Shown piece after piece: positions 58,901 through 61,900 of a stretch of DNA of 64,000 nt. Made by a program: the position numbers and the translations under genes. The stretch spans positions 1,736,001-1,800,000 of the forward strand of contig NC_026661.2 in NCBI RefSeq assembly GCF_000004075.3, written 5' to 3'. The notes beneath the pieces are model-generated. The model did not search any database and was not told the DNA's origin. It was given only the letters and a program-made list of their open reading frames with translations. The DNA is from Cucumis sativus (lineage: Eukaryota; Streptophyta; Magnoliopsida; Cucurbitales; Cucurbitaceae). The first letter of the stretch is position 1; each line of letters starts with the position of its first letter.

Positions 58901-61900
58901 TGTCATGAGACCAAAATTGGCATCAATGCAATAGAAAAGTACAATATATTGAGGTTCTTTCAAGCTGTAAGACACAAAAGTACTAGTTACCAACTTCAGA
59001 TGAAAAACAAGACATTTTATTTACCACTCTTTGTGTAGTTGATGATCTGAAGAGTGATTTCTCTCTGCTCTTCAATTGCATCGTTTATCTTTGAGACAGT
59101 TGCTTGATCTGTTTCAGGTCCCTGAAGAAAACTGTGCAACGAAACAGATTAAAGTGGCTGTAAGTACTTATTATTAATTTATTTGCTGTTCTCGTAGAAG
59201 TTTAAAACTAATGTTGAAAACAAGAAATTGATTGACTCTGAATTAGTAGGATTAGTTTTTTACATCAATTATTTAGCGAAAGCAAGGGAGCAATGAAATC
59301 TTATGGTAACACTAGAACAATGACTATCCATATGAATTGATCGTAGCATTATCTTGAAATTGTAGCATGAATTCATACATAAAAAATTGTAAAGACAATC
59401 ACCCTAATCATATACCAAATAACCATGGGATCTTGAAAATGGGGAAAATCTAGGATGTGCACCGTGCAGCCAACCTTATGGAGACAGCAGTGATGGACCA
59501 TGTGAGTGCGGTTGCTGCTTCATGAAATACTCCTTGAGCTTAATAGATGGTGGTATCAAGACATTAGAAAGAAGACTAGACCATACTTTAATGTCTTCAT
59601 AGATTTGTCACTGAAACAAATGTCTGACTATTTTTGACTTTAATGTCTTGAAATTTTCAAATAAGAGAAATCTTCTTAAAACCTTTTTGAGACATGGCAT
59701 ACATCTTAAGCACTCTACAACACATATATAGTCTAAAGAGATAAATTCAAGCTTCAAACAGAGGGGAAACTGAGAGAATAATATTAAGGATGTTGGAAAA
59801 GATAAAACAACTTCAACTGTTAAACAGAAGAAAGAATATAGCGAAATGCTACCAAAAGTTTCTCCCCAGAACTTCTTCAAGCGTGTATTCTGTGGAATCA
59901 AGAAACCTATGAGATGCAAATATCTGCACAAAAATGTCAAATGAAACCTTGTTTAGATTTAAACCAACACAAGTTTCATTTAGTATTAGGCATTTTTACT
60001 TGGGAGAAACAGAAAGGGATCTTTCCCATTCCTGAGAATGAAATAATAGATTAGCTCATAGAAAATTGAGAATCATTATCCCAAGAAGAATATCATTTGT
60101 TCATAAAAAGCCACCAATCTCATTTTCATTCTTTATTTTATGAGTCTCACCATTATTAATTCATTGAAACTACTTTTATGTGGGGCTCATCTAAATATCA
60201 ATTTGATTTCTAATTTCAACATTAGTAACACATCAATGACAATTTTAGTTACTCTATTTTCATTTTTTTAAAAAAAAAAATTAGTAAACATAGCCTTAGA
60301 ATTTACTCCCACGTCATTTCTTTCTTTACAATCCCTGTTCAGTTAGATTCTCTCTCATCAGTATTGTCATGATGTAACAGCAACATACTGGAATCATAGA
60401 AAAATGAAACTGATAAGTAGTTCAGTGTCCCTCTTAGCCATTTCTTTTACATTACCAAGCTTCCATTGTAATTATTTTGACCAAACATGTGTTTCACAAA
60501 TATATCATCAGTACTCAAGTTCAATAAAAAAACCAAATGATTTTTAACTCACAATAGGATTATCAGGAAGTCTTGGATTAGTGATAAAAAATATCTTCTT
60601 GATCCGTTCCAATGTAGTAGCCAACTCAGTTCCTTGGCGTATATCCCTTTCTCTTTTAGCAACATGATCACCATCCTTAGGCTTGAATAAATATGTCTCA
60701 ACTACTGTCTTTTCTTCACGTTCTACTGCAGAACCTAAGGTCCTTTCTTTGAACCTGCATAAGAGCAAGGGTCCTGAAATGTAATTCTTATGAACAAAAA
60801 GAAAAAAATCTGCCTTGAGTAAGATATCCAGCCAATGGTTAATAGACATGAACATATATATATATAATATACGCGCTGAAATTTTTATTTGACAGTTATC
60901 ATCATTCCCTCATCCACCTAACTAATTTGCAGGTAGAAAGGTAACCCCATTGAGTAACTAAGACCTGATAATCCTAATTCTATTATCTATATATATAAAC
61001 TCGTATGAGTTGAAAAAGGATGGGCCATAATTGGGATCTAACCGAGCCTTTTGGTTATCAGCTGTGGTAAAATTCTTATCCAGAGCCTTGGATGAAGCAT
61101 AATCAGCATTAGTCTTTTCTGGCTCTTGGTGCTTTGTATCAGCATCATGCCAGTGAGATCTAAGACTTTTCACAATGTCAACCTCCACAATGGACCTAAT
61201 TGCCCTCTCAGCTTGAACCTCTGTAATGGACATGGACCTCACAGTTTTCTCTTTTCCTAGAATATCAGAGATGAGAAAAGTTAAGCAAGCAGTCGCTTCT
61301 GTTCCAAATTAGAGGAAATAAGCTTACTATCAAGTATTGTTTTATTTCAATATGATGACTTCTTCATACCTTCTATGTCTTTGGCGATCTCAACCTGCAT
61401 TCTGAGAAAAACCCAAGGAAGTTTCCGTCAGTGCCATCAACTTGCTTAGTTGTAACATTGGACCCAAAATAGCAGCAAAACAATTCAACAAATTTATTGA
61501 AAGAAATAGTTGGTAAAACAGGGCAGATTAAAACTACCCATCTAGTTTGTGGCATTATGCCTTTAAATCAACTATCCTGGATGACATCATAATTTAACTA
61601 GAAAACTTTTTCAGCATAAAAATGATTCAGACATTTCTATTCCAATAACGAGAAGTCAATATTCATTTTAAATCTTTGAAAGTGAAAGGAAAAAGTAGAA
61701 AGGAAGACTGACCCAATAAATCTGATGATTCTGCCATGGGAGTCTTTGACAGGCCCAACAGTGAGAAGATTCCAGAAAGGAGTACCATTCTTCTTGTAGT
61801 TTAAGAGCTTGCCACAGTAGCTATTCCCTTTTCTAATTGCATGTCGTATTTTAGCTACTTCATTCTTATCTGTCTCCGGTCCTTGAAGAAACCGGCTGTT

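Follow-up and report, generated by a model that had tools for sequence, protein, structure and literature searches.

LOV2 is reported to be both necessary and sufficient for activation of the phototropin kinase, and the role of LOV1 in the full-length receptor is described as an open question (PMC8086140). The residues conserved among LOV domains are G447, N449, C450, R451, F452, L453, Q454, N482, N492 and Q513 (PMC11151830). In a phototropin survey, loss of the LOV2 Cys was described for the zygnematalean neochromes, which have another sensor (PMC4532919). Among engineered receptors, Arabidopsis phot1 C512A kept the dark trypsin pattern and lost the light-induced change (PMC4401697), and it failed to restore phot1 function (PMC4357641); when LOV2 of phot2 is inactivated, some function may be left to LOV1, at least in phototropism (PMC4357641). 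Here we describe PHOT2b, a PHOT2-like gene of cucumber (Cucumis sativus) with an altered LOV2 adduct site, found in a stretch of 64,000 nucleotides (C7:1736001-1800000; hereafter the window). The window is part of a genome of 226.6 Mb in 88 contigs with three phototropin genes, PHOT2b and its paralogues PHOT2 (~8.057-8.069 Mb) and PHOT1 (~14.925-14.937 Mb), the last two on C6 and both with open frames. The reading that we favour, with about even confidence, is that PHOT2b is a retained PHOT2 duplicate whose LOV2 would lack the adduct. It would probably act as a kinase locked in its dark state, or as a dimer partner, and would sense light through LOV1 at most.

The LOV2 adduct site of PHOT2b

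The exon model of PHOT2b was built by hand and then translated, and its joins are predicted from the sequence. The gene, the two exons and the two codons concerned are listed below (a slash marks an intron; substitutions carry AsLOV2 numbers).

62627..52981, minus strand: PHOT2-like gene (PHOT2b), 22 exons, coding sequence (CDS) of 2640 nt, 879 aa, ATG to TGA
59853..59923, minus strand: exon 6, LOV2 as far as the adduct site; bears L437S
59025..59131, minus strand: exon 7, LOV2 middle; bears R467N and L480I
59857..59855, minus strand: Phe397 codon TTT, replacing the adduct Cys codon, which is TGT in PHOT2 and TGC in PHOT1
59854..59853 + 59131, minus strand: Cys398 codon TG/T, homologous to the Arg codon, CG/G in PHOT2 and AG/A in PHOT1

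Joining exons 6 and 7 gave GGG AGA AAC TTT TG/T TTT CTT CAG, which reads G R N F C F L Q and replaces GRNCRFLQ. The intron between the codon halves is 721 bp long with GT-AG at its two sites, and the reading frame at the junction is fixed by the 22-exon model, which is open from ATG to stop. The initial annotation had read GRNFCFLQ in this phototropin LOV2, and the exon join and the open frame confirmed that reading. When LOV2 was compared across the species' own phototropins, PHOT1 and PHOT2 were found to keep GRNCRFLQ, as they do in LOV1. The corresponding junction codons are GGA CGA AAC TGT CG/G TTC CTT CAA in PHOT2 and GGA AGA AAT TGC AG/A TTT CTG CAA in PHOT1, and the junction sequences are AACTGTCG/../GTTCC in PHOT2, AATTGCAG/../ATTTC in PHOT1 and AACTTTTG/../TTTTC in the window.

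Alignment of the junctions placed the LOV2 intron after the second base of the Arg codon in PHOT1 and PHOT2, and in all three genes exon 6 measures 71 nt and exon 7 measures 107 nt (paralogue exon bounds were set by requiring the window gene's phase at both ends and choosing the best-scoring site pair). Equal exon lengths and the same intron place in the three genes indicate substitutions only, with no indel. The replacement of both the adduct Cys and the next Arg in an intact frame, as first described, thus stands in the junction alignment; its proposed cause, an extra TTT before the donor and a lost Arg codon after the acceptor, was not supported, and a compensating indel at the splice junction is rejected. 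That idea probably took as its model the LOV1 intron, which splits the Cys codon (TG/C) in the window gene and in PHOT2. A PHOT2-like ancestor would imply a one-base change from Cys to Phe (TGT to TTT) and a two-base change from Arg to Cys (CGG to TGT), and by alignment the neighbouring Cys398 corresponds to the former Arg.

An assembly error, or a splice form giving GRNCRFLQ, would be a trivial source of the motif, and we consider it hardly credible. The adjacent codons differ on both sides of the 721-bp intron and are accompanied by five other pocket changes, which argues against an error of assembly. The splice scan covered GT/GC donors between a point 20 bases inside exon 6 and one about 120 bases beyond the exon, together with AG acceptors from 150 before to 60 after the start of exon 7; none of the five in-frame, stop-free combinations, the predicted join included, gave Asn-Cys-Arg, so that the restoring splice sites envisaged in the initial annotation were absent from this set.

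Further changes in the flavin pocket

The substitutions extend beyond the adduct site. Seven of 23 LOV2 pocket positions are changed, namely N414I, V416F, L437S, C450F, R451C, R467N and L480I, and W491S adjoins Asn492. The AsLOV2 numbering was anchored on the conserved residues in PMC11151830, and the pocket list combines positions known from LOV domains with residues from that paper. PHOT2b LOV2 keeps eight of the ten conserved LOV residues, C450 and R451 being replaced, and by its residues it is not a canonical LOV domain. LOV1 is different: none of its 23 pocket positions carries a residue absent from both paralogues, and its adduct site is GRNCRFLQ (Cys164-Arg165). Changes unique to PHOT2b outnumber those unique to PHOT2 by 21 to 4 in LOV2 (n=121) and by 28 to 18 in the kinase. 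The LOV2 excess gave Fisher p values of 0.06 against the kinase, 0.30 against LOV1, 1.0 against J-alpha/linker and 0.13 against all three, and LOV2-specific acceleration in PHOT2b is therefore suggestive only.

The initial annotation had proposed a receptor that is light-insensitive, constitutive, dominant-negative or altered in its photochemistry. These options are inseparable by sequence, and the other substitutions in the pocket favour a LOV2 that has lost its photochemistry over one that has gained a new one. New photochemistry could take the form of semiquinone signalling by the Cys-less LOV2. Cys-less LOV proteins can signal in this way and natural Cys-less LOV-like proteins exist (PMC4682037), and the equivalents of Gln454, Asn482, Asn492 and Gln513 are retained in PHOT2b LOV2. 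However, the Arg equivalents R451 and R467 are both lost, as is V416, so that FMN (flavin mononucleotide) binding by this domain is doubtful; moreover, Phe fills the place of the Cys, and Cys398 stands at the former Arg place. In LOV structures, the side chain at the Arg place is directed to the flavin phosphate, not to the reactive carbon. We regard semiquinone signalling as very unlikely.

Gene model and domain architecture

The remaining exons of PHOT2b, all on the minus strand, are as follows.

62137..62627, minus strand: exon 1, start codon, N-terminal extension and LOV1 start up to GRN plus TG of the LOV1 Cys codon
61713..61895, minus strand: exon 2, remaining LOV1 core; Cys164 and Arg165 intact
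61370..61401, minus strand: exon 3, LOV1 end; donor absent from PHOT2 and PHOT1
61043..61256, minus strand: exon 4, LOV1-LOV2 linker; exact end uncertain
60553..60754, minus strand: exon 5, linker, the A'alpha helix and the first strand of LOV2; bears N414I and V416F
58843..58895, minus strand: exon 8, LOV2; bears W491S and a one-residue insertion (QMK)
58642..58734, minus strand: exon 9, LOV2 core end; lacks 4 residues relative to PHOT2 directly behind the last strand
58516..58457, 58200..58111 and 58001..57925, minus strand: exons 10-12, J-alpha helix, linker and kinase glycine-rich loop
52981..57402, minus strand: exons 13-22, Ser/Thr kinase and C-terminus

The translated model has a single, terminal stop and GT-AG at 21 of 21 introns, and its start resembles that of PHOT2 on C6. 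Pfam placed PAS_9 in two stretches and Pkinase at residues 548-830 (208 bits), and these results, together with alignment to PHOT1 and PHOT2, identified the phototropin architecture of two LOV domains followed by a Ser/Thr kinase. In a sequence search of the PDB with a query peptide without the linker, phototropin LOV1 and LOV2 entries stood on top, and the other matches among the best 60 of 152 were LOV fusions and further LOV proteins. Intron loss, stops, frameshifts and broken splice sites were sought in the PHOT2b model as marks of a pseudogene and none was found, indicating that the gene is not a processed or long-decayed pseudogene.

The LOV1-LOV2 linker was rebuilt at 61370..61256, where a derived donor, AAG/GTATGA, replaces the longer exon 3 of PHOT2 and PHOT1; read-through past this donor runs into an in-frame TGA after GMKKSSY. 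Five open joins of exons 3 and 4 were found, four with the donor at 61370 and one with the donor at 61360, and the exon 4 donors at 61043, 61001 and 60965 all keep the frame.

PHOT2b is a duplicate of PHOT2

PHOT2b shares with PHOT2 of the same genome its domain order, 22 exons, intron places that match outside the linker, and collinear neighbours; it differs in the LOV2 motif, in a shortened linker and post-LOV2 segment, and in the loss of one activation-loop Ser. PHOT1 has the same architecture and exon number and is the more distant paralogue, with GRNCRFLQ in LOV2. Over 611 core codons, PHOT2b is nearer to PHOT2 (73% identity) than to PHOT1 (66%). Given GRNFCFLQ in LOV2, we call PHOT2b a PHOT2 homologue by descent, with a phototropin function that is only putative. 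Its status as a duplicate, apparent from these comparisons, was missed by the initial annotation; as PHOT1 and PHOT2 on C6 are intact in sequence, light-insensitivity of the plant as a whole does not follow.

Matching C6:8027000-8092000 against C7:1696001-1880000 gave 77 rows, in which phototropin, RING, mTERF-like, DC1-like and FAR1-like genes follow in the same order on C6 and C7, the other rows being repeats or further frames of the same genes. The window members of these pairs, named by eye and each collinear with a neighbour of PHOT2 on C6, are listed here in window coordinates.

47148..47696: RING gene
38207..39214: mTERF-like gene
24952..25671: DC1-like gene
19021..21354: FAR1-like gene

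Relative orientation agrees in four of the five collinear genes, the FAR1-like gene being the exception, and the RING pair is weak (about 37-40% identical). The AP-1 sigma neighbour, which lies between phototropin and RING on C7, had no match on C6, five on C7 and one on C3, and the lectin-kinase-like, pentatricopeptide-like and cellulose-synthase-like genes of the window had none within the compared 65 kb of C6. Synonymous divergence (dS) of the PHOT2 pair was 1.33 by NG86, 1.30 by YN00 and 1.19 by the codon model. NG86 gave 1.35 for the mTERF pair and 1.38 for the DC1 pair, whereas its values for the FAR1-like (2.98) and RING (2.89) pairs are saturated and too high for use. On sequence, the PHOT2b and PHOT2 blocks fit a block duplication. 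A cucurbit-common tetraploidisation, seen also in cucumber, has been reported (PMC6856369) and would be the source of that duplication.

Two further observations concern both regions. Retrotransposon gag/protease-like frames were recognised by eye at window 591..3456 (minus strand), and a similar stretch, C6:8072774-8073953, adjoins PHOT2. Short repeated motifs at C7:1729836-1730761 match a similar array near C6 PHOT2 (8073911-8074127).

Selection on PHOT2b

The main fit assumed equal synonymous rates for both duplicates (a clock), and in the per-domain fits time and kappa were fixed from the core. Over the 611 core codons, omega (the ratio of nonsynonymous to synonymous rates) was 0.19 for PHOT2b and 0.08 for PHOT2. 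By domain, the PHOT2b and PHOT2 values were 0.25 and 0.08 in LOV1, 0.16 and 0.04 in LOV2, 0.29 and 0.08 in J-alpha plus linker, and 0.16 and 0.10 in the kinase, and omega = 1 was rejected in each of the four PHOT2b domains. With the clock assumed, PHOT2b has been under purifying selection on average. An unconstrained three-branch fit gave core values of 0.12 for PHOT2b and 0.20 for PHOT2, a difference that is not significant (p 0.55); on the PHOT2b branch it rejected omega = 1 for the core, LOV2 and the kinase, and did not reject it for LOV1 (p 0.92) or J-alpha/linker (p 0.19). Because of saturation on the PHOT1 branch and an unstable split between the duplicates, the clock-constrained fit was used instead. 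In a substitution-only neutral simulation from the PHOT2 CDS, carried out at five divergences (0.05-0.59 substitutions per site), all 300 runs at every divergence acquired at least one stop. Taken together, omega well below 1 and a frame that stayed open where neutral runs acquired stops suggest that PHOT2b has probably been under selection for most of its life; selection may now be relaxed, and perhaps ended recently.

The last point leads to the possibility, which we hold doubtful, that PHOT2b is a recently dying or unexpressed duplicate, kept by selection until lately, with the LOV2 changes as the first marks of pseudogenisation. Across the core codons 73 residues are unique to PHOT2b and 30 to PHOT2, and the clock omega exceeds that of PHOT2 in all four domains (kinase p 0.05). 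The lost first activation-loop Ser, the weak exon 6 donor and the derived exon 3 donor also fit a dying copy. Such a copy is harder to reconcile with 2640 nt free of stops and frameshifts, 21 of 21 canonical introns, a clock-constrained omega well below 1, and neutral runs that had all acquired stops even at the lowest divergence.

A model for PHOT2b function

The kinase of PHOT2b keeps its catalytic residues K574, E593, D670 and D688. In the activation loop, the first serine is replaced by L727 and the second, S729, is kept. Autophosphorylation at two activation-loop serines is reported to be essential for signalling (PMC4357641), and the loss of the first counts against normal signalling. 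Alignment with the paralogues also showed one inserted residue in a loop of LOV2 and four deleted residues behind the LOV2 core; J-alpha carries two changes from PHOT2, D to V and E to K, and E474K is present in the A'alpha/Abeta gap.

We propose that LOV2 of PHOT2b would be unable to form the cysteinyl-FMN adduct and would probably bind FMN poorly or not at all; in AsLOV2, no soluble holoprotein was obtained for V416M (PMC11151830). With no LOV2 adduct and a poor hold on FMN, light could not lift kinase repression through LOV2. PHOT2b would then act like a naturally LOV2-dead phot2, mostly dark-locked with its kinase mostly repressed, and light input would be at most weak, through LOV1. Phototropin homo- and heterocomplexes form mainly via the N-terminal parts (PMC5014152), and PHOT2b may still dimerise with PHOT2 and PHOT1 via its own N-terminal part. 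It would thereby modulate these phototropins, diluting them or serving as a cross-phosphorylated partner, and would not be a primary receptor. A bolder version, which we put forward tentatively, is that PHOT2b is a light-blind cucurbit phototropin kept by selection, which has shed LOV2 photochemistry and now either regulates the other phototropins as one of their subunits or works as a kinase controlled by LOV1 or by an input other than light.

The same changes around LOV2 could instead release the kinase, so that the remodelled domain no longer represses it and PHOT2b signals, or destabilises its partners, without light. The loss of four residues from the stretch that joins the LOV2 core to J-alpha, the two J-alpha changes and the decay of the pocket would suit this outcome; the phot1 kinase can become constitutive through mutations elsewhere than at the adduct site, and R472H reduced wild-type phot1 levels (PMC5566536). 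However, phot1 R472H was unable to start signalling in dark Arabidopsis (PMC5566536), removing only the Cys does not alter the dark trypsin pattern of LOV2-kinase (PMC4401697), and one activation-loop Ser is lost. In a test of E474K in phot1, light could still activate the kinase (PMC4401697), and the presence of this change in PHOT2b is therefore not informative. A constitutive kinase seems unlikely to us.

Several points weigh against a retained, dark-locked modulator. The omega of PHOT2b under the clock, 0.19 against 0.08 for its sister, fits partial relaxation equally well as a new role, and the unconstrained fit failed to apportion synonymous change and did not reject omega = 1 for LOV1 or J-alpha/linker. 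The pocket changes show no enrichment over other conserved LOV2 sites (7 of 23, compared with 14 of the 81 further LOV2 positions at which PHOT1 and PHOT2 agree; Fisher p 0.24). One of the two activation-loop serines with phosphorylation reported as essential is replaced by L727. Two splice sites are also of concern: exon 3 relies on a derived donor, and the exon 6 donor, TTG/GTAGCA, fits the consensus less well than any other of the 21 (4/9 by simple counting). Finally, dimerisation and dark-locking are transferred from Arabidopsis and would apply to cucumber by analogy.

Other genes of the window

Two other genes were noted in the window.

11768..15952, plus strand: cellulose-synthase-like gene, with a RING zinc finger and catalytic exons recognised by eye; end ...GGGFQFP
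34480..36851, plus strand: L-type lectin receptor kinase-like gene, with its open frame split into 34480..35847 and 36063..36851

Comparison with known phototropins

An extra cucurbit PHOT2 copy is already in print, with an expression heat map (PMC11040678), and it is likely to be the PHOT2b of this window; the examined parts of that paper contain no LOV2 analysis. A literature search of titles and abstract openings gave no report of LOV2 loss in cucurbits among the matches listed. With its LOV1 pocket and kinase intact and LOV2 dismantled, PHOT2b offers a ready-made experiment on the LOV1 question, set in a crop plant whose PHOT1 and PHOT2 look normal by sequence.

Three groups of described proteins come close to PHOT2b. 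The natural Cys-less LOV-like proteins, such as archaeal BAT-LOV, also have the adduct Cys replaced in a LOV-like domain; that set of about 70 entries was defined by retention of all other strictly conserved residues (PMC4682037), whereas PHOT2b has lost the Arg too. The engineered phot1 C512A and LOV2-inactive phot2 resemble it in losing the LOV2 adduct site with LOV1 and kinase present; theirs is a change of a single residue, whereas PHOT2b is natural and carries several further pocket substitutions. The zygnematalean algal neochromes are, like PHOT2b, natural phototropin-type proteins in which the LOV2 Cys and other FMN contacts were lost (PMC4532919). However, neochromes carry a phytochrome-type red/far-red sensor, of which Pfam found none in PHOT2b, and PHOT2b is by its sequence a duplicate of a flowering-plant PHOT2.
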